Source of the DNA: a virus
DNA length: 20,395 bases
Virus record (IMG/VR): IMGVR_UViG_3300006750_000110
Location: 1 to 20,395 of that record
Direction: 5' to 3' (one strand)
The notes under the pieces: generated by a model
Databases searched by the model: none
Told to the model about the DNA's origin: nothing
Seen by the model: the letters and a program-made list of their open reading frames with translations, nothing else
Shown: piece after piece, positions 2 through 19,556 of the stretch
How the letters are laid out: every line of letters begins with the position of its first letter
Numbering within the stretch: the stretch's first letter is position 1
Translations under genes and position numbers: made by a program

Positions 2-1219
2 CACGTTTTAGGAGACTATCCCGATTGGTGGGAAGGGCATAGATTTGATACTCCAGTTAAGGTTTGGGCAGCAGGTAATACAACTGCCAATACAAGGGAT
101 ATAGTCCAGGCAGAGCTTCTAGGTGAGCCAGGAGACTTGGAAGATTGGGGTAAGGGGTTGATACCGAAAGATAGAATAATTCACACAGACAGGCTTCCAG
201 GCATCCCTAACGCTATTTCTGCAGTTACAGTCAAACATAAGTCAGGAAAGAATTCTAAAATCTGGTTCAAATCCTACGAACAAGGAAAAGAACAATGGAT
301 GGGTAAAGCAGTCGATATTGTCTGGTTAGACGAAGAACCTCCTCAAGATATCTATTCTCAAGGTTTAAGAGCGACTTTAAAAACCCAAGGCTTGATATTC
401 ATGACATTCACTCCTGAAAAAGGCATGACTAATACGGTTGCCCAATTCATGAATGATCTTAAACCAGGACAACAGCTTTATCATGCAACATGGGATGATG
501 CACCACACTTAGACATAGATACCAGAAATGAAATCCTTGCTGCCCTTCCACCGCATGAAAGAAATATGCGATCAAAAGGGATTCCTATCCTTGGTTCAGG
601 ATTGGTTTACCCAATTGACGAAGATGCTATCAAGATACCTTCATTTCCAATTCCAGAATACTGGCCCAGAATCTGTGCAGTCGATTTCGGATGGGATCAC
701 CCATTTGCATGTGTATGGGTTGCATGGGACAGAGAAACGGATACGGCTTATGTTTACGACACCTATTCTATTAGGGCTGAAACACCTGTTACTCATGCCC
801 ATTCGATTAAGTCTAAAGGTGCTTATATTCCTTGTGCGTGGCCTCATGATGGTATGCAACACGATAAAGGATCTGGTGAACCTCTTGCTCAACAGTATCG
901 GAGGCTTGGTGTTAATATGCTTGGTTCTCATTTCAGCAATCCTGACGGGGGTTTTTCTGTTGAGCCAGGTATTATGGATATCCTTCAAAGAATGCAGTCG
1001 GGCAGGTTTAAAGTCTTTGAACATCTTTCCGACTGGTTCGCAGAAATGAGAATGTACCATCGTAAAGAAGGAAAGATCATCAAAGAACGTGACGATATCA
1101 TGTCTGCAACAAGATATGCTGTTATGTCTTTACGCTATGCAACCATTCATAAGGAAATCCCTAAAATGGAGTTTGCTATAGGTACTCAAGATCACGAATA
1201 CCAATACTTTGCTGCTTAA
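2..1219 (+). CDS. terL: Phage terminase large subunit, C-terminal 405 aa (5' truncated by window edge)
   Basis: This is the DNA-packaging motor: an ATPase that drives DNA into the prohead and a nuclease that cuts the concatemer. The frame is open from base 2, so the gene enters from the left and the Walker A region is missing. Visible are a conserved block early in the fragment (YPDWWEGHRF, then a TRDIVQ stretch), a Walker B strand with catalytic acid (DIVWLDEEPP, about 314-340) and a coupling motif (FMTFTPEKG, near 400). The RNase H-like nuclease follows, with metal-binding acids in AVDFGWDHP (D codon at 683), PHDGMQ (D codon at 848) and RDDIMSATRYA (D codons at 1091 and 1094). A TTG at 137 is only an internal leucine codon, since the homologous sequence continues upstream. 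The next gene starts 14 bases later. Family assignment is firm from the motif order; the packaging type (cos, pac or direct repeats) cannot be told. Confidence 0.95.
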   Translation, partial: HVLGDYPDWWEGHRFDTPVKVWAAGNTTANTRDIVQAELLGEPGDLEDWGKGLIPKDRIIHTDRLPGIPNAISAVTVKHKSGKNSKIWFKSYEQGKEQWMGKAVDIVWLDEEPPQDIYSQGLRATLKTQGLIFMTFTPEKGMTNTVAQFMNDLKPGQQLYHATWDDAPHLDIDTRNEILAALPPHERNMRSKGIPILGSGLVYPIDEDAIKIPSFPIPEYWPRICAVDFGWDHPFACVWVAWDRETDTAYVYDTYSIRAETPVTHAHSIKSKGAYIPCAWPHDGMQHDKGSGEPLAQQYRRLGVNMLGSHFSNPDGGFSVEPGIMDILQRMQSGRFKVFEHLSDWFAEMRMYHRKEGKIIKERDDIMSATRYAVMSLRYATIHKEIPKMEFAIGTQDHEYQYFAA

Positions 1220-1233
1220 GAATAAAGGAATAT

Positions 1234-2997
1234 ATGGCATTTAATTTACAGGCTTTTCTAAAAACAAAAGAAAAAGGAGCAGCACTAGGTTTAAAGGGAG
1301 ATGATTTACAGGCTTACCTCGGATCAGAATTCTTTGATACTTATGATGATGACTGGGATAGTAAACCAGTAGGGCCACCTAAGACCACTACGGCTAAACC
1401 ACCTAAGACTACCATTGCTCAGTCTGCACCAAAGGATGCTGGAACTAAGCCTAAGCCTAAGCCTAAGCCTAAGCCTACTTCCACATTATCTGATAAAGAT
1501 AAGTTAGCTTTGAAAAGGTTAGGTGGTCTTTCTGGGGGTATTAGTTTACCTAATGTTGATCTAGGAAGTGTTAGTCAAATTACAGAAACTATTAAAAAAA
1601 AGGTTACTGCTACAGATTTGTCAGGTGGGCATAGTCTTAACACTACTCAAGACTTATCAGGTGGGCATAGTCTCAATACTACTCAAGACTTATCAGGTGG
1701 GCATAGCCTTAACACTGAACAGGACTTATCAGGTGGGCATAGTCTCAATACAAAACCATTTGGTAATAAACCACCAAAAGCTAGTACAGATTTACTCCAG
1801 GAAATAGGAGATGCGGACCAATTTGATATACAGGCTTTTCTTGCTCCATATTTAGAAGCAGCTAAAAAAGGTCTTCCACCTCCCGGAGTTACGTGGGATA
1901 TGCCTAAAGTTGATCTAGGAAGTGTTAGTCAACTTACAGAAAAGGTTAAATCAAAAGCTGGAGAAGGACTAGAGTCTATTAGTGATGCAGGAACTACAGT
2001 TACAGAACAAATAAAAGAGGGAAAAGAATCTATTAATGATGCAAAAACTTTTGTTGACAAACAAGTAGACGAAGGGAAAGAGTCTGCCACAGAATTCATA
2101 GATACACTAAAGACAAAAGCGACGGCACCAAGGCTACATCTTTCTAAAGACGAATTATTACAACAACTCCACGAAACGATTAAACAAAAAATTGATCTAG
2201 GAAGTGTTAGTCAACTTACGGAAAAGGTTAAATCAGAAGTTGGAGAACTCACAGAAAACATCGAAAATACTGATATTACAGATCCCCAAATAAATACAAA
2301 TCCATTAGGAGATACCAAGGTTGATCTGGGAAGTCTCAGTCAATTCACAGAAAAAGTTAAAACAGATGTCGGTGGGGGATTAGAAGAACTAAAGGAAAAT
2401 ATTGATACAACCTATAAAGGTTCAGATTTGAACATAGGTTTGGAGAATGTTCAAAAAGAAGGACAAAAAGCAATCACACAAGTAAAGCAAGAAGGTCAAA
2501 AGCTCTTAACAGGTGATTTTAATCTAGAAAATGCAGTAAAAGGGACTATCAGTGGAATAGAGGATACTTATAAAGGATCTGATGCACATTCTGTCTTACA
2601 ACAAGTTGAAGACTTTGTTAAAGATCCTACTAAAGGTATAAGAGACTATGCTGAAGATGTTAAAGAAGAAGGGGAAGCAGTTGTAACACAACTTCAAAAA
2701 ACAGGAAAAAATATAGAAACAACAGGTCAAAATATTCTGGGAGCCTTTGAAGATACTTTTAATACAGGAATGAATGTTTCCACTGCATTGGGTTCTAATG
2801 CAGCAAAACAGGTCATGAAAGCTAAATCAGATCTTTCTTCTGCTCTTACTTCTGCATTTGGAAGTTCAAAAGGTGCAGGTCCAAAAATTGGGAAGACAAC
2901 TTCTATAGGAACCTTATTGGAACGTGATAGAGATAAAAGGAGAGGTGGTTTAAGCCGATCTGGAACTTCAAGAACCTTAATTACAGGAAAATACTAA
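1234..2997 (+). CDS. Unrecognised 587-aa repeat-rich phage protein between terminase and portal
   Basis: I do not recognise a family. A GGA ribosome-binding site lies just upstream of the ATG. The N-terminus carries two LQAFL/LQAYL motifs 20 residues apart, with a third copy (IQAFL) near residue 199. Then come a Thr/Pro/Lys-rich linker with five KP pairs (residues 72-81), four tandem copies of DLSGGHSLNT (residues 128-173), and four dispersed copies of a VDLGSVSQ-x-TEKVK motif starting near residues 108, 226, 320 and 363. TYKGSD occurs twice (about residues 394 and 446). From about residue 230 to 510 the chain is rich in Lys, Glu, Thr and Gln in runs that suit amphipathic helix, resembling LEA or apolipoprotein-like sequence. 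The C-terminus is basic and Gly/Ser/Thr-rich (RRGGLSRSGTSRTLITG). No signal peptide or membrane segment is seen. It sits inside the structural operon and overlaps the next gene by one base, so a virion or assembly role is likely but unproven. Confidence 0.85.
   Translation: MAFNLQAFLKTKEKGAALGLKGDDLQAYLGSEFFDTYDDDWDSKPVGPPKTTTAKPPKTTIAQSAPKDAGTKPKPKPKPKPTSTLSDKDKLALKRLGGLSGGISLPNVDLGSVSQITETIKKKVTATDLSGGHSLNTTQDLSGGHSLNTTQDLSGGHSLNTEQDLSGGHSLNTKPFGNKPPKASTDLLQEIGDADQFDIQAFLAPYLEAAKKGLPPPGVTWDMPKVDLGSVSQLTEKVKSKAGEGLESISDAGTTVTEQIKEGKESINDAKTFVDKQVDEGKESATEFIDTLKTKATAPRLHLSKDELLQQLHETIKQKIDLGSVSQLTEKVKSEVGELTENIENTDITDPQINTNPLGDTKVDLGSLSQFTEKVKTDVGGGLEELKENIDTTYKGSDLNIGLENVQKEGQKAITQVKQEGQKLLTGDFNLENAVKGTISGIEDTYKGSDAHSVLQQVEDFVKDPTKGIRDYAEDVKEEGEAVVTQLQKTGKNIETTGQNILGAFEDTFNTGMNVSTALGSNAAKQVMKAKSDLSSALTSAFGSSKGAGPKIGKTTSIGTLLERDRDKRRGGLSRSGTSRTLITGKY
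1447..1476 (+). repeat. Lys-Pro dipeptide repeat (five aag-cct units)
   Basis: Five perfect tandem six-base units (aag cct) encode KPKPKPKPKP in the linker of the repeat-rich protein. The low-complexity unit could change copy number by slippage without breaking the frame, altering linker length. Confidence 0.9.
1555..2361 (+). repeat. Four dispersed copies of a VDLGSVSQ-TEKVK coding repeat
   Basis: Copies start at about 1555, 1909, 2191 and 2320, each about 33-42 bases. The core reads V/I-D-L-G-S-V/L-S-Q-x-T-E and is usually followed by KVK. The first three copies share the DNA core gatctaggaagtgttagtca; the fourth differs at silent and conservative positions (ctggg, agtctc). Spacing is irregular (354, 282 and 129 bases), so these are dispersed motifs rather than a tandem array. 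Such high DNA identity suggests recent duplication or recombination inside the gene. Confidence 0.9.
1615..1752 (+). repeat. Tandem 36-bp coding repeat, 3.8 units (DLSGGHSLNT-TQ)
   Basis: Units start at 1615, 1651, 1687 and 1723; the last stops after 30 bases. Each encodes DLSGGHSLNT followed by TQ or EQ. Silent differences alternate: units 1 and 3 use ctt-aac for Leu-Asn, units 2 and 4 use ctc-aat. This points to a 72-bp two-unit block that was itself duplicated. There are no unique spacers, so it is not a CRISPR array. Confidence 0.95.
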
Positions 2998-3314
2998 TGG
3001 GAGGATCAACAGGACGATTAATTGACCAAACTACTGGTTTTATATCTGGTGGACATGGAACTAATCTGGAAAAGGAAGCAAATAAGTTGGGTAAAAATTA
3101 TGAAAAACAATGGCAAGGGTTTACAGATAAGTTAGGTCTTCCTGATTTTAAGAACCCAGACGAATTGCCAAATCTAACAGAATTGACTGACGCCTTACCA
3201 AAATCTTCTGAAAGTAATAATCCTTTTTCAATGGCATCTTATGGAAACAACGTAAGACAAAGACGAAAATCAGGATTTGGTAGAAGGCAAACCTTTAAAG
3301 GTCTTACAGGCTGA
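2997..3314 (+). CDS. Unrecognised 105-aa phage protein before the portal gene
   Basis: The start codon overlaps the stop of the repeat-rich gene in a TAATG junction, and the stop overlaps the portal start in a TGATG junction, so translation is probably coupled on both sides. The protein is polar, with Asn, Lys and Gly in excess, no membrane segment and no recognised domain. The end is strongly basic (NVRQRRKSGFGRRQTFKGLTG without its last residues is the key stretch: RQRRK, GRRQT, GLTG). A basic, Gly/Thr-rich tail also ends the preceding 587-aa protein (RRGG, SRT, ITG), and both proteins contain an SGGH motif. The pair may therefore share a binding partner. Function is unknown; the junctions and position make the gene itself credible. 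Confidence 0.8.
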   Translation: MGGSTGRLIDQTTGFISGGHGTNLEKEANKLGKNYEKQWQGFTDKLGLPDFKNPDELPNLTELTDALPKSSESNNPFSMASYGNNVRQRRKSGFGRRQTFKGLTG

Positions 3315-4963
3315 TGGATTTATTCACACAGCTTACATCTGAGTTGGCATCTCTCAAAGACTCTAGACGTAACTGGGAAAGCACTTGGCAGGAAATAGGA
3401 GATCTTGTTTCTCCTAACAGAAGTGATTTCCTTACCCTAAGAACTGCAGGAGAGAAACGTAGAGAAAAGATCTTTGAATCTACACCTTTACGTGCCTTAA
3501 CCAGATTTTCATCTGGTATGCATAATCTGTTGACTCCCAGTACACAAAACTGGTTTGAGTTGAAGATGAGAAATAATGCACTCAATGAAGAACGAGATGT
3601 ACAGTTGTGGTTGGAAGAATCTACAAGAGTATTAATACAGACCTTTAATAGACCCAACAACAACTTCCATCCTGCAATGCATGAATACCTATTGGATTTA
3701 GGTGCATTCGGTACAGGAGTTATGCATGTTAAAGATATTCCAGGTGAAGGACCATATTTTGCGAGTTATCCACTCTATAACTGCTTCCTTGCAAAGAACG
3801 AAATGGGTCGTGTAGATACGATCTATAGAGTTTACGAACATACTGCAAAAGAAGTCCTGGAAGCATTTGGTGAAGAAAAACTTCCTGATAAAGTACAAAA
3901 AGCCATAGAAGCAGGAAAATACTATGACAAATTTGAATGCGTACATGTAGTTAAACCAATATCTACATTTAAAGATGCTCCCATCAAACGATTCCCATTT
4001 GTCAGTATTTATTTCATGCCTACTGCAAAAGCCATTCTGAATGTAGGTGGTTTTGAATCATTTCCATTTGTATGCAGTCGTTGGGAAAGAAATGCACAGG
4101 AAACTTATGGAAGAGGTCCAGGTGCTGAAGCATTGGCAGATATTAAAATGCTCAATGAGATGGAAAAGACCTACCTCAAAGCATTACAGAAGATTGTTGA
4201 TCCACCATTGATGATTCCTGATGACGGATTCTTAAACCCTATAAGAACAACACCTGGAGGAATCAACTACTATCGATCAGGACTAGGCAAAGACGAAAGA
4301 ATCTTTCCAATGCCTTCTGCACAAAGAGTTGACATTGCAGAAGCAAAAATGGCTCAAGTCAGAGAAAACATAGAAAAGTCGTTCTACCTAGACATGATGG
4401 AATTGCCAGGACCAGTTGCAAATGATGGTGATGTTTTAAGATTTACTGCAACTGAAGTTCAGGCAAGACAAAGAGATCGTTTACAGATTGTTGGACCTAT
4501 TGTTTCAAGACAGGAAATTGAAATGCTAGGACCAATGATAGAACGGGCAACTCAAATTCTTCTTACTAATAATCTGCTTCCTCAACCTCCTGATGTTGTT
4601 ATGGAACAAGAAGAATTTAAGATCGAATATCGAAATCCAGTCTCTGTAGCAATGCGGGGCTATGAATTGAACAGCATATCTCAACTGATTCAGTTCCTTA
4701 CTCCAATTGCCCAAATCGACCCAACCATTCTACAGAGGCTGGATACTTCTCAAGTAGTTAAACTTGGTGCAGATATCTTAAGAACACCACCAAGTGTTGT
4801 TAAAGATGAAGCACAGTTTCAACAAGAGTTGCAACAACAGCAGGAACAGTCAGCAATGATGCAACAATTACAACAAGCAGAAATAACAGCAAACATTGAC
4901 CAAGTAACTTCAACTGCAGAAAAGAATAGAGCAATGGCAGCACAGCAGATGACTGCAGTATAA
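3314..4963 (+). CDS. Portal protein (head-to-tail connector, T7 gp8-like)
   Basis: The portal is the dodecameric ring at one capsid vertex through which DNA enters and leaves and on which the tail is built. The 549-aa length is close to T7 gp8 (536 aa). The N-terminal region (residues 1-140) has the pattern of the podovirus head-tail connector family: a helical start (LTSELASLKDSRRNWESTWQ), the block LVSPNRSDF, then FESTPLRALTRFSSGMHNLLTP and a WF pair, followed by LLDLGAFGTGVMHV. The C-terminal 60 residues are Gln-rich (QQELQQQQEQ, MMQQLQQAE) and likely form the helical barrel or crown inside the head. It sits between the 105-aa gene and the Bbp19-like gene, joined by TGATG and TAATG overlaps. 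The assignment is strong from family pattern, length and position. Confidence 0.93.
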   Translation: MDLFTQLTSELASLKDSRRNWESTWQEIGDLVSPNRSDFLTLRTAGEKRREKIFESTPLRALTRFSSGMHNLLTPSTQNWFELKMRNNALNEERDVQLWLEESTRVLIQTFNRPNNNFHPAMHEYLLDLGAFGTGVMHVKDIPGEGPYFASYPLYNCFLAKNEMGRVDTIYRVYEHTAKEVLEAFGEEKLPDKVQKAIEAGKYYDKFECVHVVKPISTFKDAPIKRFPFVSIYFMPTAKAILNVGGFESFPFVCSRWERNAQETYGRGPGAEALADIKMLNEMEKTYLKALQKIVDPPLMIPDDGFLNPIRTTPGGINYYRSGLGKDERIFPMPSAQRVDIAEAKMAQVRENIEKSFYLDMMELPGPVANDGDVLRFTATEVQARQRDRLQIVGPIVSRQEIEMLGPMIERATQILLTNNLLPQPPDVVMEQEEFKIEYRNPVSVAMRGYELNSISQLIQFLTPIAQIDPTILQRLDTSQVVKLGADILRTPPSVVKDEAQFQQELQQQQEQSAMMQQLQQAEITANIDQVTSTAEKNRAMAAQQMTAV

Positions 4964-7159: not shown

Positions 7160-7666
7160 ATGGCCATAACAACGCAAAACAGCACACAGTACGCTAACAC
7201 TGTAGCTGTACCTTCAGTAATGAATGACCCTTCAGATCATCATGGTCGAATGAGAATTATGTATTTTTCTCATGATCAAGATGGTGCTGGAGAAGCAACT
7301 TCTTCTGTTGCATTAGGAAAGCTTCCTGCTGGTAAAGTCCGTTTATTTATAGGCTTATCCAGAGCTTATGTCAATTGGGTCACAAGTGGTGCAAAAATTG
7401 ATTTAGGTTGGGATGCTTATACTGATCTTGCAGGAGATGCAGTAGCAGCCGATCCAGATGGATTAATCAATGGAATCAGTGTCGATACCGTTGGTTATTT
7501 CAGTTTAGAAGGAGCTTCTGCTAATACTGGAGCACCTCTAAAAGCAACTGGTGGAACAAAGTTGTTTGAATCTCAAGGTGGTGTTCTAATCAGAGCAACT
7601 TCTGAAGATGAAGCACTAGTTGATGGCGATGATCTCGCTGGTTATATGGTTTACACCATTGACTGA
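7160..7666 (+). CDS. Probable capsid cement (decoration) protein, Bbp16-like
   Basis: A 168-aa protein with beta-rich, Gly/Ala/Asp-rich sequence and no membrane segment. Proteins of this length directly after this kind of capsid gene are the capsid cement or stapling proteins of BPP-1-like phages, which bind outside the shell and stabilise it. Visible pieces include a block ending in SDHHGRMRIMYFSHDQDG, a strand-rich core (KLPAGKVRLFIGLSRAYVNW), a DLGWDAYTDL segment, and an end with GGVLIRATS then DLAGYMVYTID. An AAGGA site lies upstream of the ATG. A strong terminator-like hairpin follows the gene. The assignment rests on gene order and overall pattern; another minor head protein is the alternative. 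Confidence 0.72.
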   Translation: MAITTQNSTQYANTVAVPSVMNDPSDHHGRMRIMYFSHDQDGAGEATSSVALGKLPAGKVRLFIGLSRAYVNWVTSGAKIDLGWDAYTDLAGDAVAADPDGLINGISVDTVGYFSLEGASANTGAPLKATGGTKLFESQGGVLIRATSEDEALVDGDDLAGYMVYTID

Positions 7667-7707: not shown

Positions 7708-7851
7708 ATGTCTAGAATTGTTTTGTATTCAACAGATGGTGATGAAAGAGAAGTCACTAGAGGTTCTTCAGAATTCAGAGAACTTTCTAAATTAGGTTGG
7801 TCTGCTGTAAAAAAAGAACCTGTAAAGAAACCTGCTAAGAAAAAAGCTTAA
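7708..7851 (+). CDS. Small 47-aa protein with Lys/Pro/Ala-rich tail
   Basis: A short gene between the terminator hairpin and tail tube protein A. It has an AAAGGA ribosome-binding site seven bases upstream of the ATG, and its TAA overlaps the next ATG in a TAATG junction. The predicted protein has a folded-looking front half (MSRIVLYSTDGDEREVTRGS, then SEFRELSKLGW) and a basic tail, VKKEPVKKPAKKKA, that resembles a histone H1-type or DNA-binding tail. There is no signal peptide. It closes the otherwise empty gap from 7667 to 7850. Function is unknown; nucleic acid contact or a minor virion role at the head-tail junction are guesses. Confidence 0.75.
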   Translation: MSRIVLYSTDGDEREVTRGSSEFRELSKLGWSAVKKEPVKKPAKKKA

Positions 7852-8486
7852 TGGCTACTGCAATTCAGATATCTAATATTGCCTTAAACAATATTGGTGA
7901 CGGGACTATTACAGCTTTTGATGATGCTAATGCACGGGCAAGAGCCTGTAAATTAAGGTTTGAAGATGTAAGAGATGCCGTGCTTCGTTCTCATCCTTGG
8001 AATTGTATGACTCATAGAACAGAGTTATCCAAAAGTGGAGACTATACACCTCCATTTGAATATAACTATGCCTATGTTTTGGATAATACGATTATTCTCA
8101 GGGTTTTAAACCTCTATGAAAGTGACCAATACGATTATCCATTCAAAGTAGAAGGTCAGTATCTTCTGACTGATGCTACTACTGCAAAGATCAAATACAT
8201 CAAAAAACCTAGTTCCAGAGATGATACTACTGATTTTGATGCACAATTGGTTCAGGCAATAGCAATGGGACTTGCATCAGAAATTGCAATGGATCTTACA
8301 GGTCAAGGATCATTGCGTGATTTGATGTTAGGTAAATTCCAGCAAGTGTTATCAGAAGCAAGAAGTATTGATGCACAAGTTGGTACTGCAGATGTTATTG
8401 AATCCAATGAATGGTTGAATTCAAGGAATACTTCCATGTCAGGAAACTTCAGACCTTTTTCTGCATCAACTGCAAATGGTGTATAA
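7851..8486 (+). CDS. Tail tube protein A (T7 gp11-like adaptor)
   Basis: This protein forms the ring beneath the portal that joins head to tail nozzle. The 211-aa length is close to T7 gp11 (196 aa). Key patterns are the N-terminal IQISNIALNNIGDGTITAF, a conserved block ARACKLRFEDVRDAVLRSHPW, then PPFEYNYAYVLDN and the C-terminal helix VQAIAMGLASEIAMDLTGQ. These match the podovirus gp11 family: small residue-rich N-terminus, RD.VLR.HPWN, and ALA..LA...T. The gene starts in a TAATG overlap with the 47-aa gene and abuts tail tube protein B with no gap, the usual pairing. Confidence 0.92.
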   Translation: MATAIQISNIALNNIGDGTITAFDDANARARACKLRFEDVRDAVLRSHPWNCMTHRTELSKSGDYTPPFEYNYAYVLDNTIILRVLNLYESDQYDYPFKVEGQYLLTDATTAKIKYIKKPSSRDDTTDFDAQLVQAIAMGLASEIAMDLTGQGSLRDLMLGKFQQVLSEARSIDAQVGTADVIESNEWLNSRNTSMSGNFRPFSASTANGV

Positions 8487-11400
8487 ATGAGAGTGACCCA
8501 AACTCAGACTAATTTCTGGGGAGGTCAGATTGCGGTTAAATCACAAGGTTTTGTAGATGAGGAATTGTATTCCAAATCTGTACAAGAACTTACCAACTTT
8601 GTGGTTACACCAAATGGTGGAATTGCAAGAAGACCAGGAACTCAATATATAGCGAGAACCAAACCAAATGCAGTAGGAGTTGGAAAAGAAGCAAATGCAG
8701 TAAAGTTGATTCCTTTTACTATAGGATTTGGAAGTTCAAACAACTATATACTGGAATTTGGAGTTTATCAGCCTGAAGTAGCAATCACTTCTGTAACAAC
8801 TGGAGATAATCTATTTACTGTTTCAGGAGGACATGGATTGTCGAGTTACGATGTTATTCAGTTAGAAGCAACTACGTTGCCTACAGGTGCTTCAGCAAAT
8901 ACTGATTATCATGTTCTAGTACTAAACAGCACTCAATTCAAAATTTGCACGACTGCAGCAAATGTAACTTCTACGACAGTAGTTGGTCTTAGTGGTAGTC
9001 TTTCTGCAGGTAAAATCAGTTCTAGAGGATATATAAGGTTTTATAAGGACAAGGCACAGTTGGCTTTATCAAGTAAACCTTATGAACTAACAACACCTTA
9101 TAATACGACTGCAAAAGTTAACTCTATACGTTTTATTCAATCGGCATCCTATTTGTTTCTTGTAAGTCCTGACGTTCCTCCACAACAGCTTGTTTATACT
9201 TCTGATACCTCATGGGCATTATCAGAAATATCTTTCTATGACGGACCTTATTTCAATTCTCAGGAACTTGCTGATGGTACTGCTTCTACAGTCACGATGT
9301 CTATATCAGGTGATCCTACTTTACCAACAGGAATCAATCAAACAGGATGGGTAGGAGAATGCGATAATGCGTATTATTGGTCTGGAGTTGGAGATTCTAA
9401 TCCTGCTCCTACAGATAATCTTCAAACCTTTTCATTCCTTCAGAATAAGAATCATGGTCTTCAGGATGGAATAAAGGTCAATCTTTCAGGAATTACTTTA
9501 GTCGTATCTGTATCTGCATCTTCTCCAGCTTCACCTACAGGAGGAGATTTATCAGATCCATGGGACGCAGATAAATCCCCTACATCAGATCCTTCTACAC
9601 ATGCAGATGTAAATCCATCAGCAACATCAGGAAGTGGTAATAAATCTAGTTTAAAAGCATCAATTACAACAGATGGTAATGGGAATCCTACCATTACAAT
9701 AACGACAATGGGTACTGGATATGATCCTACTGATACAATTACTTTTACAGATCCTGGTTCAACATCTGAAACTGCAACAATGACCCTGAATTCTGCACAT
9801 CCTTCCAATGGAGATTTCTTTGCAACTCAATGTACGGCTAATACCTTTAAATTAACCAGTGCTGTAGGAGATGCTCCTGTAGATTTTGGTCATAACCAGA
9901 AACCTACTGTAAAGGCTTATTTTTATAGAAAGAATTCAACTGTTCGTTTAACACAATCAGGAACTGGTGTATGGACAAATCAAGCTACTGATGGAGGAAG
10001 ATTATTCAGAATCAATACTTTAGGAAATGAACAGATTTATTGGGGTCATGTTCAAATTGATACAATAGATCCAGATGGTGACAATGCTAATGAAGCAGAC
10101 TGTACTGCAAAAACAGATATTCCTGTTTCGTTCACTTCTAATTTAAGAGATTGGAAATTAGGACAATGGTATACAGAGAACTATCCTCATTTTGTTTCTT
10201 TATTTCAACAAAGATTGGTCTTTGCAAGAGTTGATCATAGTCCACAGACTGTTTTCTTCTCTCAAACCAATGACTTCTACAATTTTGGCCCCTCAGAGTC
10301 TTTAGGATCGGCTACAGGACAAACAACAGCATCAGGAGCATCCATCATAGGAGAACAGGTATTAGCGTTCAATGCGATGACCTTTACGTTTGATTCTGGA
10401 ACTGTAGATGAAATCCAGTTTCTTGTACCACAAGAGAAACTTTTGGCAGGAACAACAGGTGGTATTTACGCAGTCTATGGATCAGAACAAGACTTAACGA
10501 TTACACCTACTAATTTTACAGTCAGAAGAGAAGGAACCCAACCAGCAGAAAAAACAGTCAATGCTGTAGCTGTAGATGAAAATGTTCTTTATGTCGAAGG
10601 TTCTGGAATCAAGGTTCGTTTAATCAATTTCGGTAAAGCAACTGCAGGAGAAAAATCATTCGATATCACCATAAGAGCTAATGATATTCTGAGCGATAAA
10701 GGTAAACAGATTATGGCAACCTCCATTCCTAACTATGCCAACTGGATCAGAGATGGTAATGGAGCAATCAGTTGTGTCACTTACATTCCTCAAAATACAA
10801 TATTGGCATGGCATAAACATCAAATTGCCGGCTCTTATGATTATACAAATACAAGAGGAGGTGATCCAACAGGACATTTAACAACAGATCAAACAAATGC
10901 AGTTGTAGTCGATATGGGAACTATTCCATATGATGATCAGGATCAACTATGGATGGTTGTCAGAAGAACCATTCCTACTGTAGATGGAGATAAAAGTCAT
11001 ACCATCATTGAAACCATTGAAGTAATGGAAAACTGGATGAAAGAAGAAACCATTGATAAATCCAGATTCATGGATGGTCATGTAGTCGCAACTACTGCAA
11101 CTTCAGTATCAGGTTTGAATCATCTGGAAGGATTAACAGTGAAGTTGCTTGGTGATGGTTCTCAATTGGATGATGTTGCTGTTTCTTCTGGATCTGCAGC
11201 ATCAGGTGCATCTTCGAACTATACAACTCTGGTTTCAGGATTAGGTTATGAATCTAAACTGGTAACACTTCCAGTTGCTCTTGGTCCTCGTGGAAATGTC
11301 AGAATTGGAAACAAGAAAAGGATTCACAGAGCATGGGTTAAAGTTTATAGAACACCAAATATTCAATATGGAATTTATCCAGCATCGGTTTCAGAAGGTA

Positions 11401-11591
11401 CTTTAACAGAAATGGTAACAAGAACTTTTTCTGACGAATATGGAGATCCACCAACTTTGGTTACAGGAGTTCAAGAATTGGTTCCGTCAAATCAAGGTTT
11501 TACTGATGCTCAGTTTCAGATACAGATTTCTGATTCAATGCCTACGAATATTTTAGCAATAGAACTGGATTACGAAACAAATGATAACTGA
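8487..11591 (+). CDS. Tail tube protein B (T7 gp12-like nozzle) with nested insertion
   Basis: The nozzle of the short tail. The N-terminus shows the family signature: NFWGGQI, then an ELTNFVVTPNGGIARRPGTQYI stretch shortened here to its key words NF, GG and RRPGT. Later family blocks include YPHFVSLFQQRLVFA, FSQTNDFYNFG and NWIRDGNGAISCVTYIP. At 1034 aa it is about 240 aa longer than T7 gp12 (794 aa). The extra length comprises two beta-type modules with an HGL motif (His at about residues 116 and 323); the second is interrupted by a Ser/Thr/Pro/Asp-rich insert (residues 339-434). The gene begins directly after the tail tube A stop, and the next gene starts 11 bases before its end. Confidence 0.93.
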   Translation: MRVTQTQTNFWGGQIAVKSQGFVDEELYSKSVQELTNFVVTPNGGIARRPGTQYIARTKPNAVGVGKEANAVKLIPFTIGFGSSNNYILEFGVYQPEVAITSVTTGDNLFTVSGGHGLSSYDVIQLEATTLPTGASANTDYHVLVLNSTQFKICTTAANVTSTTVVGLSGSLSAGKISSRGYIRFYKDKAQLALSSKPYELTTPYNTTAKVNSIRFIQSASYLFLVSPDVPPQQLVYTSDTSWALSEISFYDGPYFNSQELADGTASTVTMSISGDPTLPTGINQTGWVGECDNAYYWSGVGDSNPAPTDNLQTFSFLQNKNHGLQDGIKVNLSGITLVVSVSASSPASPTGGDLSDPWDADKSPTSDPSTHADVNPSATSGSGNKSSLKASITTDGNGNPTITITTMGTGYDPTDTITFTDPGSTSETATMTLNSAHPSNGDFFATQCTANTFKLTSAVGDAPVDFGHNQKPTVKAYFYRKNSTVRLTQSGTGVWTNQATDGGRLFRINTLGNEQIYWGHVQIDTIDPDGDNANEADCTAKTDIPVSFTSNLRDWKLGQWYTENYPHFVSLFQQRLVFARVDHSPQTVFFSQTNDFYNFGPSESLGSATGQTTASGASIIGEQVLAFNAMTFTFDSGTVDEIQFLVPQEKLLAGTTGGIYAVYGSEQDLTITPTNFTVRREGTQPAEKTVNAVAVDENVLYVEGSGIKVRLINFGKATAGEKSFDITIRANDILSDKGKQIMATSIPNYANWIRDGNGAISCVTYIPQNTILAWHKHQIAGSYDYTNTRGGDPTGHLTTDQTNAVVVDMGTIPYDDQDQLWMVVRRTIPTVDGDKSHTIIETIEVMENWMKEETIDKSRFMDGHVVATTATSVSGLNHLEGLTVKLLGDGSQLDDVAVSSGSAASGASSNYTTLVSGLGYESKLVTLPVALGPRGNVRIGNKKRIHRAWVKVYRTPNIQYGIYPASVSEGTLTEMVTRTFSDEYGDPPTLVTGVQELVPSNQGFTDAQFQIQISDSMPTNILAIELDYETNDN
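9501..9788 (+). other. Low-complexity plus GTGY-type insert inside tail tube protein B
   Basis: About 96 residues break the second HGL-type module of the nozzle protein. The first half is Ser/Pro/Asp/Thr-rich and probably disordered (SASSPASPTGGDLSDPWDAD region). The second half carries a short beta motif, TMGTGYDPTDTITFTDPG, of a kind often seen in phage receptor-binding or tail proteins. The flanks, HGLQDGIKVNLSGITL before and GDFFATQCTANTFKL after, read as one interrupted module when compared with the uninterrupted copy around residues 105-165. Confidence 0.6.
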
Positions 11592-11955
11592 TATCAAAGT
11601 CTGGCCTATAACGACTCAGGACGATATGGACCATATTCAAGAAGCAGCAGATGAAGATGGAGGAAGATCTTTAATTGGTCCAACTCATTTTGTTACTAAA
11701 GCTGGTTCTCCTATAGGTGCATTCTCTGTTGAAAGTCCTACTGTCTACTGGTGGATGCACTCTAAAAAAGCATCACCTAAAGATTCTAGAGCAGTCTTTC
11801 AGGCATTAGATGCAATCATGATGGACCGAAGACAAGAACATTACATCATTCCTTGTGAAGAATCTTCACCTTATTACGGACTTCTAGAAAAACATTGTTC
11901 TGTAATAAGACCTATTGAAGGTAGGGATTGGACACTTTTTACCAATAAACACTGA
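11581..11955 (+). CDS. gp13-position small protein, possibly GNAT-fold (124 aa)
   Basis: It lies between tail tube protein B and the gp14-like gene, the place of T7 gp13 (138 aa), and has a similar length. The arrangement resembles a small acetyltransferase fold: N-terminal helix with acidic residues (DDMDHIQEAADEDGG), a central strand (FVTKAGSPIGAFSVE), a helix rich in basic and acidic residues (KDSRAVFQALDAIMMDRR) and a C-terminal YYGLLEKHCSVI then DWTLFTN block. The classical acetyl-CoA loop (Q/R-x-x-G-x-G/A) is not visible, so enzymatic activity is doubtful. In T7, gp13 is needed for virion morphogenesis. The start overlaps tail tube B by 11 bases and the stop overlaps the next ATG (TGATG). 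Confidence 0.7.
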   Translation: MITDIKVWPITTQDDMDHIQEAADEDGGRSLIGPTHFVTKAGSPIGAFSVESPTVYWWMHSKKASPKDSRAVFQALDAIMMDRRQEHYIIPCEESSPYYGLLEKHCSVIRPIEGRDWTLFTNKH

Positions 11956-12551
11956 TGGGTCTTCCTTTAATTATAGCCGGAGCAATGGCAGTAGGTGCTT
12001 TAAGTTCACTTGCATCTAAAAACCAGCAGATTAATGCAGAAAAGGATCGACTTAATGCAATGGCTAGACAAGCAAGGAAAAATGCAACATTAGCAAAATC
12101 AGGTTTTTATGGTCAAGGCAATCGTTTTGGTCTTAATGCAGAACTTGAAACAGGAAGATTAGCAAGATCTCATGCACAACGAATTGGTTCTATGAGAGCA
12201 TCAATTGGAGGTTCTGGTGCAGTAGCAGATTCTGGAACAACATGGGATGTCATTGTTGCACAAGATGCAGAAAATCAATCAGAAATGAATGCATTCAGAA
12301 CACAAGTGGATTCAAGAATACAGGACTTCTTTGATCAAGGAGATTTACAGTTCAATTCTTATATGGATCAAGCAACTGCATATGAAAATGGTGCATTCCA
12401 ATTAGAACGTGGTCGACATGAAAGTATGCTCTATGCAGCAATGTCAGGTGGATCTTCAGGTGCTTCTACTGGAGCAGGTTTATATAGTGCAGGAGTTGAT
12501 CCTAAATGGCCTACTTTTGGGAAAAAAACTGGACATAATCCTCATAGGTAA
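11955..12551 (+). CDS. Internal virion protein B (T7 gp14-like)
   Basis: An ejection protein stored in the head and expected to insert into the outer membrane during infection. The length (198 aa) matches T7 gp14 (196 aa). An N-terminal hydrophobic, small-residue segment (LPLIIAGAMAVGALSSLA, residues 3-20) could span a membrane. It is followed by a long Ala/Gln/Arg-rich helical region with a conserved-looking block, RIGSMRASIGGSGAVADSGT (residues 76-95), the RASxGxSGV.xxSGS-type motif of this family. The C-terminus is Gly/Ser-rich (SGGSSGASTGAG). It sits between the gp13-like and gp15-position genes, as in T7. Confidence 0.87.
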   Translation: MGLPLIIAGAMAVGALSSLASKNQQINAEKDRLNAMARQARKNATLAKSGFYGQGNRFGLNAELETGRLARSHAQRIGSMRASIGGSGAVADSGTTWDVIVAQDAENQSEMNAFRTQVDSRIQDFFDQGDLQFNSYMDQATAYENGAFQLERGRHESMLYAAMSGGSSGASTGAGLYSAGVDPKWPTFGKKTGHNPHR

Positions 12552-14296: not shown

Positions 14297-15791
14297 AATA
14301 GTAGGTGCTGATAGTCCTTTTACGAGAAATCAACGAAAAGGTATTGCAGCAAAAAATCCATATGAAAGAAATGATTTTTTAATGAGAATGACTAATGGAG
14401 ATAATGCTGAAAGAACAACACTTACTCAGAATCTAATGAAAGATGGTACATACAGATCAGGTGATGTTTTATGGCAATATCCTCAAAATGACAACGCATC
14501 TGTTCCTGTAATCCGATATACACGAGATAATGAAACAGGATTGCAAGAACCTTATAATGTAAATATAACTGCAAGCACTCCAGGTTTCGATCCAGAACTT
14601 CTTAAAACAATGGGAGATACTTGGAAAGCAACTGAGGCTACTGTTGCTAAAAATGTCTTTGGTGATAACTCAGAAGAAAAAAAATCAGTATATAAAGCAA
14701 TACAATCAGAATGGATGTATGTCAGTACTTTATATGATGATGAAAATCATAAAGGAGGAGTACGAGAAGAATTTTTTAAAATAGGAATGAAGCTTTATGA
14801 GAATCATAGAAAAGGCAGATTAGATGATCCTACTTACAAAGCATTTACATTTCAAGGATCAGATGTAACTGATGCAATCATAAGATCTCAATATTATTAC
14901 GGATCACCTCCTGGCAACGAATATGTAAAAATCATAATACCTAAAAAAGATTTATCTCCTTTTGGACAATATGATAATGATATTATCTTTGATGCATTAA
15001 GGTATTTGAGGCATTCCGATTTAAGTCCTTATATTAATTCTAAAATTCTAGGGACAATGATTGGTGATGAAGGTGCAAATACAATGGTATATTTTAATAC
15101 TGATGCACAAAATCGGGGTATTGCAATCTTCACAACTGAAACTAACATTCAAGGTGTAGAAAGTAAGCAACATGGTGTTATCCCATTTGATGTATTTGGG
15201 AAATATGTTGTTTACAGACATAGACTTTCAATGCTTGAAGAATTAAGTAGTTGGTTCGGAAGCAACTTAAACTACGAAGGTCTTTTAAATGAAGTTTCAA
15301 ACTTTGAAAAAGCATTAGGACCAAAATCAACACACAAACCTGTACTTCAAAGAAGTCTTGCTGAAATAAGATATACAGATCAAGGAACTATAAGTCCAGG
15401 TAGCCTTTTACATGGTGCATGGCTTTTACGATCAGTAGATCCTGTAGCAAGAGGTCTTTATAAACTTAGAGAGATGAATCCTGCTTTAGAATTCAACCAA
15501 TCTGTAAACTGGCTACGGAATATATTTTACAGTGAAACAGAAATTGGAATGAATGACAGGGATCTGATTATAGAAGTAATGAATAATATTACACCAAAGT
15601 CATCTCAAGAAGAAATAATGAATGTTATTTTTACAATGAAAATGAAAGAAGTTTCTGTAATAAGAGATCATTGGGATGAAATAGGATTAATTGCAGGAGA
15701 AATGGGAACCGCAATAAAAGAACAATTTCTGGAGGCTTATAACAATTTTGAAGCAGAACGTGCTAGATATCATAGAAATAAAAATAAATGA
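14289..15791 (+). CDS. Unrecognised 500-aa protein in the ejection-protein cluster
   Basis: A soluble, mixed-charge protein without a recognised domain, signal peptide or membrane segment. The N-terminus has the words NQRKGIAAKNPYERNDFLMR, and the middle has a beta-type run (VVYRHRLSMLEELSSWFG with VYFNTDAQNRGIAIF before it). I looked for the lytic transglycosylase pattern of T7 gp16 (catalytic Glu followed by GLMQ-type motif) and did not find it. T7 has no separate gene here; gp15 is followed directly by gp16. It could be an extra ejection protein or a piece of a larger ancestral protein. The gene overlaps both neighbours (eight bases upstream, four bases downstream), so it is co-translated with them. 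Confidence 0.65.
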   Translation: MTEIVGADSPFTRNQRKGIAAKNPYERNDFLMRMTNGDNAERTTLTQNLMKDGTYRSGDVLWQYPQNDNASVPVIRYTRDNETGLQEPYNVNITASTPGFDPELLKTMGDTWKATEATVAKNVFGDNSEEKKSVYKAIQSEWMYVSTLYDDENHKGGVREEFFKIGMKLYENHRKGRLDDPTYKAFTFQGSDVTDAIIRSQYYYGSPPGNEYVKIIIPKKDLSPFGQYDNDIIFDALRYLRHSDLSPYINSKILGTMIGDEGANTMVYFNTDAQNRGIAIFTTETNIQGVESKQHGVIPFDVFGKYVVYRHRLSMLEELSSWFGSNLNYEGLLNEVSNFEKALGPKSTHKPVLQRSLAEIRYTDQGTISPGSLLHGAWLLRSVDPVARGLYKLREMNPALEFNQSVNWLRNIFYSETEIGMNDRDLIIEVMNNITPKSSQEEIMNVIFTMKMKEVSVIRDHWDEIGLIAGEMGTAIKEQFLEAYNNFEAERARYHRNKNK

Positions 15792-17158
15792 ATATCCAGC
15801 CTATACCTGATTACAACCAGGAACGAGTATTTGAAAGCAACATAAGCAGTTATAAGCCTTCTATACCAACTTTATTTAAAGAATCAATAAAGTTTGGTTT
15901 TAGAACCATGTGGTGGCAGGAAGCATTAGATGAAGTTGCTTATGATTCTGCTAGTCAAGGTAACATCATTCCAGAAGACATTTATAAAGAAAGTGTGTTT
16001 TACAGACCAGGAATAAGTTGGTTTGAAGGAATGACTGAAGAACAAGCCCAAATATTAGCAGAAAACCATGATCGTAATAACTACTACGGACAATTAACCA
16101 GAAACGTATCTGGATTTTCAACTACTGGTGCAGTTGGAATGTTTGGTGGTTTGATCGTAGGTGGTTTTGCAGATCCTTTAAATTTTATTCCTTATTTTGG
16201 TATAGCAAAACAAGTTTCTAGAGTTAAAGGACTATTTTCTAAAGTCAATAAGGCAAGGCAAGCTGCAAAAACAGCAACAACTAGAGGTGTTTTAGGAGAT
16301 TCATTAGTTACATTTGCAGATCCTATCATTGGTGCTGGTCTTGCGAATCTTGCAATTAAAGATAAACGCTCCAAGTTTCAGGAACAGCATGATTTAAAGA
16401 TGGTCTTAATGGATATGGCAGTTGCAGGAGGTATTGGTGGAACAATGGTCTTTGGGAAAGCAGTTGCCAGAAAGATGAGAAATGTATCTCACAAGACTCA
16501 TATGAATCGTGTTCAACAAGCACTAGATCAGCTTGAAGAAGGTAAGACCCTTAACCTGAAGCCTCATCCTACAAAAGGATTGAATTACGAAGCTTTTGAG
16601 GTTCCTGAGAGCATAAATACAACAACAAGAGCAACAGTTCAGTCTGCAGTCAAAGCAAATGATGAAGTTCTTCTACATGTCATTGATTTAGGCATTACAG
16701 GAGAAGATGCAATATCTGCTACTGATTCTATAAAACAGATTCTAGATAAAGCAGAAGCAGAAGGATATGACGGAATTGCCTTAGATGAATTAATCCTGAG
16801 AGATAATGAAGACATATTGATGGAAACAGGATTATCTCATCTAGATATAGAAGTTAAAACCTTAGATGGAGAAGGAGGAGTTGAAGTAGTTGTTGTTAAA
16901 AGTCCACTAGATCAAGAAGTCAAATGGGATCATGTCGATGGAAATAAACAATATGAATATAACTTTGATGCTGAAGCAGAGTCCACAACACTTAAAGATG
17001 CAGTTAAGGAAAGTATTAACCGCTTTACGCAACTTCCTTCAAAAATTGTATCAAGACTCAAAAACATTGAGCTTAAGGCTAATCAAGTCAATGAGAAGCT
17101 AACAACAATGAAGAATGCTGTAAAATCTGCAGCCCAATGTGTGATCACTAATGGCTAA
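15788..17158 (+). CDS. gp16-like internal virion protein, N-terminal part (456 aa)
   Basis: The N-terminus (residues 1-100) has aromatic helical sequence (FGFRTMWWQEALDEVAYDSA) leading into a Gly-rich hydrophobic region at residues 109-137, with GGLIVGGFADPLNFIPYFG, and another at about 205-227 (MAVAGGIGGTMVFG). These resemble the membrane-active middle of large podovirus ejection proteins. Residues 270-380 form a separate domain with AEAEGYDGIALDEL and a late strand EVVVVKSPLDQEVK, faintly like ADP-ribosyltransferase-type domains of phage polyvalent proteins. The C-terminus (residues 400-456) is Lys-rich helix and ends abruptly in CVITNG. The next gene starts eight bases before the stop and continues the expected gp16 layout; together they total 1257 aa against 1318 aa for T7 gp16. 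Confidence 0.68.
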   Translation: MNIQPIPDYNQERVFESNISSYKPSIPTLFKESIKFGFRTMWWQEALDEVAYDSASQGNIIPEDIYKESVFYRPGISWFEGMTEEQAQILAENHDRNNYYGQLTRNVSGFSTTGAVGMFGGLIVGGFADPLNFIPYFGIAKQVSRVKGLFSKVNKARQAAKTATTRGVLGDSLVTFADPIIGAGLANLAIKDKRSKFQEQHDLKMVLMDMAVAGGIGGTMVFGKAVARKMRNVSHKTHMNRVQQALDQLEEGKTLNLKPHPTKGLNYEAFEVPESINTTTRATVQSAVKANDEVLLHVIDLGITGEDAISATDSIKQILDKAEAEGYDGIALDELILRDNEDILMETGLSHLDIEVKTLDGEGGVEVVVVKSPLDQEVKWDHVDGNKQYEYNFDAEAESTTLKDAVKESINRFTQLPSKIVSRLKNIELKANQVNEKLTTMKNAVKSAAQCVITNG

Positions 17159-19556
17159 GATCAATACTTGTCAATCTATGCTGATGAATGATTTCGGCAT
17201 GGATGAAAAATCTGCACAGAAGATGTTGGATGATTTGAAGAAAGGCAAATCTCCAGAAAAGATTCTAGATCGTGCAGAACGCTATGCTGCAACTAAGGAT
17301 TTTGAATTACAACAAGGTGAAGCAAGAGCAGAACTAGGAATGCATGCTTTTGAGAAAGCATATAATTTCATAATGATGCCTGTAAATGGTGTAAGTCCTG
17401 ACATTGATACTATCTTTACTCGTTTTAGAGCATTACTTACAGGATCAACCAAAGAAGGAGAAGGATTCTTAAATAGTATAGGAGCAGCACAAGATACAAG
17501 AACTCAGTTGATGCATGGAAGGATTCAAACAGAATTCTTAAACAATACAGGTCTTACAAGAACTCAAATGCATCGTTTGTTACGTAATAAGCGTTTTCAG
17601 GAAGATTTAGTCAAAGAACGATTTCCTCTTCAAAAGAAAAGCGTAACTGGAAATAAAGAAGCTCATGAACTGGCTAAGATTATAGAAAAAGAGAATCTAA
17701 GAGTTGTTCAAGAAGCAAATGCTGCAGGAGCAGCAATCCTTTATGATTCAACACATGTAACAACTCAATTCCATGATATTCCTCAAATGAAGTTAATGGG
17801 TGAAGATGAATGGATTGATTTCACAATGAGTCTTTTAGATAAAGATAAGACTTTTGGAGGGTTTGAACCTAATAGAGAAATATTAAGAAGAGTCTTCAAG
17901 AAGATAACTAAAGAACTTGAAGAAGAAGTAGATGCTACTGAAACAATGGCAGATGCATTATCTGCATCACGTTATCTTCATTTTGAAGATGCAAATGCTT
18001 GGTTAACTTACAATAAACGCTTTGGGCATCAAGATCCTGTTCTTGCAATGATTGAAGGATTGGAACTCCAAAGCGACAGAACTGTTCTTATTCAACGATT
18101 AGGACCAGATCCAGAAGCTACGTATAAAGAATTAAAACAAGCACTTTCAGAAGTTCCTCAAGTTAAACAACTTATTGAAGGAGAAGGATTAGATAAACGA
18201 TTTGATCTTCTTTCAGGAAAATCTTTAATACCTGGAAGTGTAACCCTTACTAAAATCACTTCAGGAGTAGTCAGTTGGCATTTGATTACTGATATGGGAA
18301 AGGCATTCCTTTCTTCATTCGGTGATCCTTTAATACAAGCCATGACCATGAACTATTATGGTAAGTCTTTTTTATCTTCCTACCATGATACGTTCAAGAA
18401 TCTGAAAAGATCTTTTAATAGAAACTTAGGCATGGAAGAACAAGACATGTTTAAGTTTCTTGGTATTGGTATCGATGGAATCCTTAATTCTTCATCTTCC
18501 AGATACATTAATTCAGATCCTGTAACAGGAACTTTGTCTCGTATGGCAGACAAAATGTTCATGTATAACGGACTCAATTACTGGACTAATGCAAATAGAG
18601 AAGGATTTGCACGAATGTCATCTGCATTTATGGGAGATCAAGCACGTTTTAAGTGGGATGGATTAACTTCACAGTATCAAAGGATACTTCAGCAATATGG
18701 TATAACAGAAAGTGATTGGAACTTAGTACACAAGATTGGTGCATATGACATAGCTGAAGATATAGATATTAAGAATAGATCTATTGACATATATGCAAAT
18801 GAAAGATACGTTACACCTGACCATATAAGAAAATTCTCTAAATCAAAACAAGCTAAAGAATTAGCTAATAAATTAGAGATTTTTTTTGTCAATGAATCAA
18901 AGATAGCAGTTCCTCAACCAGGGAAGAACGAAAAAGCTATCATGTCTTTTGGGTTCCAAAGAGGAACCGTACCTGGATCGTTAGCAGAACTCTTTTGGTT
19001 ATTTAGAGGTTTCTCGCTAACAATGGCTGTTCAGCAATATCCAAGGATGATGCAGAATGGCATGGGTAATTCAGCAATGCATTTAGCACCAGCAATTATG
19101 CTTGGTTATGCATCGCTCACCGCAAAGGATCTTTTCAAGGGGAAAGAACCAAGAGATCCTTTCGATTCTTCTACTGCAGCAGCTTCCTTAATTCAATCTG
19201 GTGTACCAGGAATTGTTGGAGATTTTGTCTACAACAGTTATTCACAATACGGGTTCAACTGGTCTGACTTTATTGTTGGACCTGTAGCATCTGATTTTAG
19301 AGATGCAGGAAGAATATTCTCAGGGATTGTCAATGGAGAAAAAGATGCAGCAAAAGCATGGAGTGCAGTTAAAAACAACATTCCTTATGCAAATCTCTTC
19401 TATCTTGAACCAGTAGTGAATTATGGGCTTATTTACCACATCCAAGAATATCTTAATCCAGGTTATCTAGGAAGAACGGAAAACATGCTTCGACATTTTG
19501 AGAATCAAGATTATATAGAAGCATTCCGTCCTAGTGCTGTAGTAGGAGGTTATTAA
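17151..19556 (+). CDS. gp16-like internal virion protein, C-terminal part (801 aa)
   Basis: A large ejection protein, mostly helical. The pattern SRYLHFEDANAWLTYNKRFG (about residues 280-300), then the QRLGPDPEATYKEL block, WHLITDMGKAFLSSFGDPL (near residue 382) and the late SFGFQRGTVPGSLAELFWLF with AVQQYPRMMQ, match the usual C-terminal layout of large podovirus internal proteins. It ends LEPVVNYGLIYHIQEYLNPGYL, the kind of closing block such proteins have. No transglycosylase motif is visible. The ATG at 17151 overlaps the previous gene by eight bases, and a TGA in this frame at 17142-17144 rules out an earlier start nearby. The stop overlaps the tail fibre ATG (TAATG). Expected to form the inner-membrane part of the DNA conduit. 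Confidence 0.75.
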   Translation: MAKINTCQSMLMNDFGMDEKSAQKMLDDLKKGKSPEKILDRAERYAATKDFELQQGEARAELGMHAFEKAYNFIMMPVNGVSPDIDTIFTRFRALLTGSTKEGEGFLNSIGAAQDTRTQLMHGRIQTEFLNNTGLTRTQMHRLLRNKRFQEDLVKERFPLQKKSVTGNKEAHELAKIIEKENLRVVQEANAAGAAILYDSTHVTTQFHDIPQMKLMGEDEWIDFTMSLLDKDKTFGGFEPNREILRRVFKKITKELEEEVDATETMADALSASRYLHFEDANAWLTYNKRFGHQDPVLAMIEGLELQSDRTVLIQRLGPDPEATYKELKQALSEVPQVKQLIEGEGLDKRFDLLSGKSLIPGSVTLTKITSGVVSWHLITDMGKAFLSSFGDPLIQAMTMNYYGKSFLSSYHDTFKNLKRSFNRNLGMEEQDMFKFLGIGIDGILNSSSSRYINSDPVTGTLSRMADKMFMYNGLNYWTNANREGFARMSSAFMGDQARFKWDGLTSQYQRILQQYGITESDWNLVHKIGAYDIAEDIDIKNRSIDIYANERYVTPDHIRKFSKSKQAKELANKLEIFFVNESKIAVPQPGKNEKAIMSFGFQRGTVPGSLAELFWLFRGFSLTMAVQQYPRMMQNGMGNSAMHLAPAIMLGYASLTAKDLFKGKEPRDPFDSSTAAASLIQSGVPGIVGDFVYNSYSQYGFNWSDFIVGPVASDFRDAGRIFSGIVNGEKDAAKAWSAVKNNIPYANLFYLEPVVNYGLIYHIQEYLNPGYLGRTENMLRHFENQDYIEAFRPSAVVGGY

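Follow-up and report, generated by a model that had tools for sequence, protein, structure and literature searches.

A repeat-built protein encoded next to a phage portal gene combines a fixed C-terminal tail with a variable body

We analyzed a 20.4 kb stretch of viral DNA (IMG/VR record IMGVR_UViG_3300006750_000110, positions 1–20,395; the whole stretch is called the window here) and found that a repeat-rich protein of 587 amino acids (aa), encoded between the genes for TerL and the portal, is a much enlarged, hypervariable version of a known but little-studied portal-proximal protein. We consider it somewhat probable that this protein and its 105-aa neighbor are virion proteins of the T7 gp7.3/PHROG 831 type in a marine BPP-1-like short-tailed phage, each made of a fixed C-terminal anchor and a free body. 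The highly constrained TerL–portal stretch thus hosts two of the fastest-changing proteins of the phage, which are fixed only in their last ~20 residues, and this contrast between flanks and a tail that hardly change and a body that changes freely would surprise specialists.

The gene order of the window is BPP-1-like. TerL, the 587-aa open reading frame (ORF), the 105-aa ORF and a PF12236 portal are followed by a Bbp19-like gene, a scaffold/protease-like gene, the major capsid protein gene, a gene for a 168-aa protein in the cement position, and then the tail proteins and internal virion proteins. The TerL–portal block is composed as follows.

2–1219, plus strand: TerL, with its 5′ end cut by the window (Pfam PF17289, 8.6e-23; PF03237, 1.1e-18)
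1224–1229, plus strand: AAAGGA, which probably serves the 587-aa gene as ribosome-binding site, as read in the sequence
1234–2997, plus strand: ORF with ATG start for the 587-aa repeat-rich protein (62.6 kDa, pI 5.4), with a basic C-terminal tail as putative anchor
2997–3314, plus strand: 105-aa partner of the 587-aa protein, similar in kind (pI 9.6) and coupled in translation to the genes on either side
3314–4963, plus strand: portal (head-to-tail connector; Pfam PF12236, 3.3e-121)

The stop codon of the 587-aa gene overlaps the ATG of the 105-aa gene, whose stop in turn overlaps the portal ATG. Since these stops and starts overlap and AAAGGA precedes the first ATG, the three genes form one coupled block, in which the 105-aa gene lies directly 5′ of the portal and the 587-aa gene is the next one out. 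The two proteins have in common an SGGHxxN motif and the same kind of C-terminal tail; the preliminary description of this DNA had overlooked both the conserved basic tail and the neighbor that carries these features.

Elsewhere in the window, the cement-position gene (7160–7666, 168 aa) has no DNA match in loci L004, L010, L011 and L044, which are >90% identical to the window on both sides of it, pointing to a second gene that was replaced wholesale. The tail protein in the nozzle position (8487–11591), which follows the adaptor (7851–8486), has 1034 aa; its best phrog_376 match begins at residue 405, and the stretch before this match looks expanded.

Motif reading of the 587-aa protein recovered the frame and all of the repeats named previously, which, with further features, are located as follows.

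1246–1344, plus strand: N-terminal helical hairpin, residues 5–37, the sole part predicted with moderate confidence (pLDDT about 65–81)
1447–1476, plus strand: KPKPKPKPKP linker, residues 72–81, whose repeat number differs among relatives
1555–1608, plus strand: VDLGSVSQ repeat 1, residues 108–125
1615–1752, plus strand: four tandem DLSGGHSLNT units repeating every 36 bp (L005 and L007 have three)
1909–1962, plus strand: VDLGSVSQ repeat 2, residues 226–243
1909–2793, plus strand: acidic, amphipathic-helical body, residues 226–520, net charge −22
2191–2244, plus strand: IDLGSVSQ repeat 3, residues 320–337; the segment separating it from repeat 2 is lost in L007
2320–2373, plus strand: VDLGSLSQ repeat 4, residues 363–380

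The best ungapped self-match of the protein scored 178, as against a maximum of 56 in 40 shuffled sequences. DLSGGHSLNT units start at residues 128, 140, 152 and 164 (TRF score 201, 87% matches), [VI]DLGS[VL]SQ motifs at residues 108, 226, 320 and 363, and QAFL/QAYL occurs at residues 6, 26 and 200. The DNA of the VDLGSVSQ copies is near-identical, which indicates recent duplication. Amphipathic-helix periodicity was significant at residues 226–300 and 400–520 (reached by none of 500 shuffles), and residues 521–587 are very basic (pI 11.1) in an otherwise acidic protein. AlphaFold modeling together with 11 relatives gave nearly all helix and coil, with a mean pLDDT of 40.7 and a pTM of 0.21; the 105-aa protein gave a pLDDT of 53 and a pTM of 0.18. 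From these models, both proteins look disordered or partner-dependent. The preliminary description had proposed a long flexible or helical virion protein: the flexible, helical character agrees with the models, while a virion role at the portal/tail axis is only probable.

Searches of Pfam, PHROGs and a phage collection with the 587-aa protein returned no significant match, in line with the earlier assignment to no known functional family. The PHROG 831 profile did not match the protein at E 0.1, single-sequence PDB searches gave only proline-rich chance matches, and Foldseek with the low-confidence model found nothing below 1e-3. Matches to ATG17, YtxH and tail fibres were weak and were set aside as coiled-coil background. 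We also rejected a chance origin of the reading frame, which has orthologues, is coupled to its neighbors and ends in a conserved tail.

The conserved part of the 587-aa protein is its C-terminus, SRSGTSRTLITG, and a tail of the same kind closes the 105-aa protein.

2929–2994, plus strand: putative C-terminal anchor tail of the 587-aa protein, residues 566–587, RDKRRGGLSRSGTSRTLITGKY (PSSM core 2950–2988)
3252–3311, plus strand: C-terminal tail of the 105-aa protein, RQRRKSGFGRRQTFKGLTG, with invariant columns G-G-R-R-Q-T-L-T-G in 14 relatives

When the 105-aa family and its relatives were aligned, the invariant block was the tail, GxGRRQTxLTG; the corresponding block in the 587-aa family is RRGGLSRSGTSRTLITGK, and the L012 tail, KFGRGQTARTLITGKY, links the two forms in the alignment. 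Because a full profile HMM of distant tails gave no significant match among the clade ORFs, we used a matrix restricted to the C-terminus, with 13 columns, built from 19 tails that were picked by eye from small TerL–portal proteins (PHROG 831 type) of distant phages and that included no sequence from the window's clade. The 587-aa protein and its orthologues scored 18.0 bits with this matrix, ranking first among 653 clade ORFs, and the 587-aa tail ranked first among the 64 frames of the window, where the next best reached 4.7 bits. A tail-bearing ORF (at least 5 bits) was present in all 31 intact TerL–portal intervals of the clade, compared with 19 of 465 ORFs elsewhere, some of these 19 being portal C-termini. 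The 105-aa tail scored only −2.5 bits owing to a two-residue insertion, yet it is related by alignment. As for the portals themselves, clade members such as L022:2073–3737 and L036:2288–3952 end in ExxRAQASxxIAG and score 7–11 bits, a weak resemblance to the anchor tail.

The preliminary description had regarded such a gene as foreign to the interval between terminase and portal. This view does not hold, as small PHROG 831-type genes occupy the same slot in BPP-1, BcepC6B, phiV10 and Pelagibacter phages, and T7 gp7.3 is encoded just 5′ of the portal; what is unusual in the 587-aa gene is its size and its repeats, not its slot. Small slot proteins ending in GRSSTILTG...KKTLLG include HTVC034P gp57 and gp59 and those of Skadi-1, HTVC028P and Greip, as well as BPP-1 Bbp22, BcepC6B gp04, phiV10 p06, AF_004 and that of Jess A. 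They come from cultured phages with the same portal class as the window and fall in or near PHROG 831. A PDB profile search with 14 PHROG 831 proteins yielded only proline-rich chance matches, and our literature search on epsilon15 gp3 and Bbp22 found nothing. Between TerL and portal, no tail-bearing ORF was seen in Vibrio phages VP5 and 131E34-1, Xanthomonas phage CP2 or Stenotrophomonas phage BUCT708; the tail-bearing slot is common among phages, not universal.

Scanning IMG/VR with the portal returned 67 loci. A genome scan for the host was not informative: its one finding was a distant portal on a MAG contig of an alphaproteobacterium. In the clade, the TerL–portal interval holds one to three small ORFs, with sizes of 587, 314, 244, 238, 237, 235, 222, 219, 214, 203, 141 aa and less. 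The bodies have been swapped at their N-termini, judging from the sequences: the window protein begins with MAFNLQAFL, those of L012, L015 and L019 with MGGSxG, and those of L016, L021, L027, L045 and others with LRPWDCExFPKSKxICxGGGG. L005 and L007, which carry one DLSGGHSLNT unit fewer, also have shorter KP runs. In L043 and L047, proteins of 296 and 280 aa are built from a different repeat, GG[GN]WxDRxG; thus, growth by repeats arose more than once in this slot.

L043:4507–6840, L047:1931–4183 and L041:689–1699 encode repetitive proteins of 777, 750 and 336 aa, which are a third kind of oversized protein between TerL and portal. Their C-termini are alike (KSKKxRKTKAGAGSYL type), and they lie beside a gene of GNAT-like type and one for a tail-bearing protein that contains GG[GN]WxDRxG repeats. 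By eye, the window ORF 11581–11955, located between the tail and internal virion genes, resembles the GNAT-like proteins that L041, L043 and L047 encode immediately 5′ of their portals, while a family search with it found no match; Pseudomonas phage AF likewise has a GNAT-like gene 5′ of its portal, AF_003, annotated as an acetyltransferase.

Comparison with L006 shows how sharply the body departs from its surroundings. L006 has the same TerL (0 nonsynonymous and 16 synonymous changes) and a near-identical portal (2 nonsynonymous and 11 synonymous changes in 548 codons), and it encodes a 214-aa version without the repeats of the window; DNA homology ends at 1212 and restarts at 2496. In residues 421–587, we counted 39.5 nonsynonymous and 7.5 synonymous differences, a cleaner figure than the multi-pair window–L006 body value, which includes codons that are not clearly homologous. 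As dS in this region (0.067) equals that of TerL (0.066), import of the body from a distant lineage need not be invoked. Against its nearest relatives, the window has dN/dS values of 0–0.05 in TerL and portal and of up to 0.6–1.7 in the bodies of the 587- and 105-aa proteins, whereas the tails of both show no amino-acid change; the 22-residue tail of the 587-aa protein is unchanged in L006 and L004. Other pairs behave similarly, with flanks at 0.01–0.05, bodies mostly at 0.2–1.2, and tails with 0–1 amino-acid changes. This pattern suggests that the last ~20 residues anchor the protein and stay constant, and that the body attached to them can vary almost freely.

Sequence comparison also indicates that body alleles are exchanged between strains, independently of the 105-aa gene. 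L015 and L019 have the 587-type body in common but not the 105-type, the reverse is true of L019/L037 and L045/L015, and L012 and L013 are identical throughout the interval and the portal, with TerL genes that stand at dS 0.25 from each other. In L007, 282 bp between VDLGS repeats 2 and 3 are missing, and both repeats align to one L007 stretch, which identifies the loss as a deletion by direct-repeat recombination. The L007 orthologue also carries a frameshift (L007:4714–4778), splitting it into two overlapping ORFs, which is either real or an assembly error.

These data bear on the preliminary proposal that the VDLGSVSQ motifs bind several copies of one partner, for instance the portal ring. 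Four near-identical copies might suggest such a role, but near-identity of the DNA indicates recent duplication, the array was altered by recombination in L007, and the repeats are absent from L006, L015, L016, L019, L037 and L045, where the portal is nearly the same. The motifs are lineage-specific and missing from several close orthologues. Since they vary in this way, we regard the repeats as a source of length change and not as a conserved binding array, and a multivalent binding function as very improbable.

The free variation of the body beside an almost invariant TerL and portal likewise argues against a non-structural assembly or packaging factor that acts on TerL or the portal and stays outside the mature virion. 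Coupling of the gene between TerL and portal would suit such a factor, as would the requirement for gp7.3 in T7 assembly, where it may scaffold the nozzle; the T7 and LUZ19 counterparts are particle proteins, however, and we judge this explanation improbable. A hypervariable delivered protein, in which the tail would be a loading tag and the body would act in the host envelope or cytoplasm and diversify under host pressure, accounts for one tail common to bodies of different origin, for dN/dS of 0.6–1.7 beside frozen flanks, and for allele exchange independent of the 105-aa gene, and T7 gp7.3 is ejected first. Body dN/dS is not significantly above 1, however, and is explained just as well by relaxed constraint, the body being disordered, as by diversifying selection; moreover, we found no enzymatic or toxin domain in Pfam and PHROG searches, nor a confident fold. 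We consider such a delivered protein unlikely.

The gp7.3-type explanation draws on what is known of T7, in which gp6.7 and gp7.3 are both encoded just 5′ of the portal. Cryo-EM places six copies of gp7.3 at the adaptor–nozzle junction, with the C-terminal loop (residues 84–98) anchored to the nozzle, K84/K85 on the DNA end, and the remainder flexible along the DNA; the protein is ejected (first), infective particles are not assembled without it, and it may scaffold the nozzle (PMC11784390). Its unstructured body gains substitutions and in-frame deletions during passage (PMC12798971). PHROG 831 connects to gp7.3 through a chain of sequence matches. AF_004, which has the PHROG 831 tail and lies directly 5′ of the portal in Pseudomonas phage AF, matches with its N-terminal half the ORF that immediately precedes the portal gene in the Pseudomonas autographivirus LNA8 (E 1e-5 by tblastn over the phage collection; 1e-14 pairwise), and this LNA8 ORF aligns to IME15 gp7.3 (1e-5 pairwise). 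LUZ19 gp29, whose gene also lies immediately 5′ of the portal, carries the annotation 'phage particle protein'. It is on the T7 gp7.3 data, this AF_004/LNA8/IME15 bridge, LUZ19 gp29 and the variation of the gp7.3 body that we base our proposal of a gp7.3-like working. The 587-aa protein has no direct sequence match to gp7.3, and the tail matrix gave T7 gp7.3 1.8 bits, a non-significant score reached by 12% of ORFs; our claim is therefore that the protein works like gp7.3, not that it belongs to the same family.

By analogy with T7, the 587- and 105-aa proteins would be present in the virion, where the basic tail ([KR]-rich, then GxxxTxxTG) would seat them on the inner wall of the portal–tail channel (adaptor/nozzle) and contact the DNA end as the gp7.3 loop does. 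The flexible, mostly helical body would run along the channel or in the base of the head and exit with or ahead of the DNA. Having little sequence constraint, the body could change fast, swap between strains, and lengthen or shorten by repeat duplication and recombination, by which it may have reached 587 aa here.

The chief obstacle to this model is size. By our estimate, six copies of a 62.6-kDa protein are unlikely to find room beside the DNA in the channel; some of the body may instead sit at the base of the head, compare gp6.7, or the copy number may be low. This size, together with the amphipathic helices, would better suit the head interior, as in an inner-core protein like T7 gp6.7, of which 12 copies are bound to the portal barrel and ejected. 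The tail would then bind the outer portal barrel inside the head, and the body would join the ejected core and envelope channel; the presence of two small virion protein genes 5′ of the portal in T7 (gp6.7 and gp7.3), and of two genes in the window, is consistent with this. On the other hand, the bridging homology leads to gp7.3 and not to gp6.7, which scored a non-significant 0.8 bits with the tail matrix, and core genes have their own place downstream: internal-core families (T7 gp14, gp15 and gp16 type) matched the downstream ORFs 11955–12551, 15788–17158 and 17151–19556, with hits to phrog_418, 342 and 684, and not the 587-aa protein. We see a gp6.7-like role as a possibility, though a doubtful one.

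The gp7.3-type explanation gives PHROG 831, with members in epsilon15-like and BPP-1-like phages and pelagiphages, a concrete hypothesis, that of a portal–tail-channel protein with a C-terminal anchor. Owing to the pattern of fixed tail and variable body, the role of the anchor and the purpose of the body are directly testable. A more speculative extension, which we think quite unlikely, is that short-tailed phages in general use the conserved tail as a loading tag, by which whatever body it carries is placed in the portal–tail channel and delivered first into the cell, and that the fast-diversifying, repeat-grown body of this marine clade faces host selection. If the tail were a sufficient loading signal, it would provide a simple means of tracking the entry of a protein into the virions of a laboratory phage.

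Among known systems, PHROG 831 proteins (phiV10 p06, HTVC034P gp59, BcepC6B gp04 and BPP-1 Bbp22) resemble the 587-aa protein in the position of the gene between TerL and a PF12236 portal, in a basic GRSSTILTG-type C-terminal tail, and in a flexible body, which in PHROG 831 is proline-, glycine- or lysine-rich. They are mostly 65–135 aa long and free of repeats, whereas the 587-aa protein is 4–9 times longer, acidic and repeat-built; their second C-terminal motif, KKTLLG, is not found in the window tails, which end in TGKY and LTG. Elongated tail-bearing proteins of 187–217 aa occupy the same slot in Pelagibacter phages (HTVC028P gp49, Skadi-1 62 and Greip gp18), with different bodies that contain neither DLSGGHSLNT nor VDLGSVSQ repeats. 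T7 gp6.7 is comparable as a second small and flexible virion protein that is ejected and whose gene lies 5′ of the portal, but it binds the portal barrel and has no detectable sequence similarity to the window proteins. T7 gp7.3 (PHROG 1320; PDB 9JYZ) differs in having 99 aa and a basic body, as opposed to the acidic body of the 587-aa protein, and homology to the window proteins runs only through AF_004 and LNA8. Its gene stands directly 5′ of a portal of the same class (PF12236 type), apart from the 7.7 insertion of T7, and, like the 587-aa protein, it combines a basic C-terminal loop with a disordered body, which in T7 tolerates in-frame deletions.
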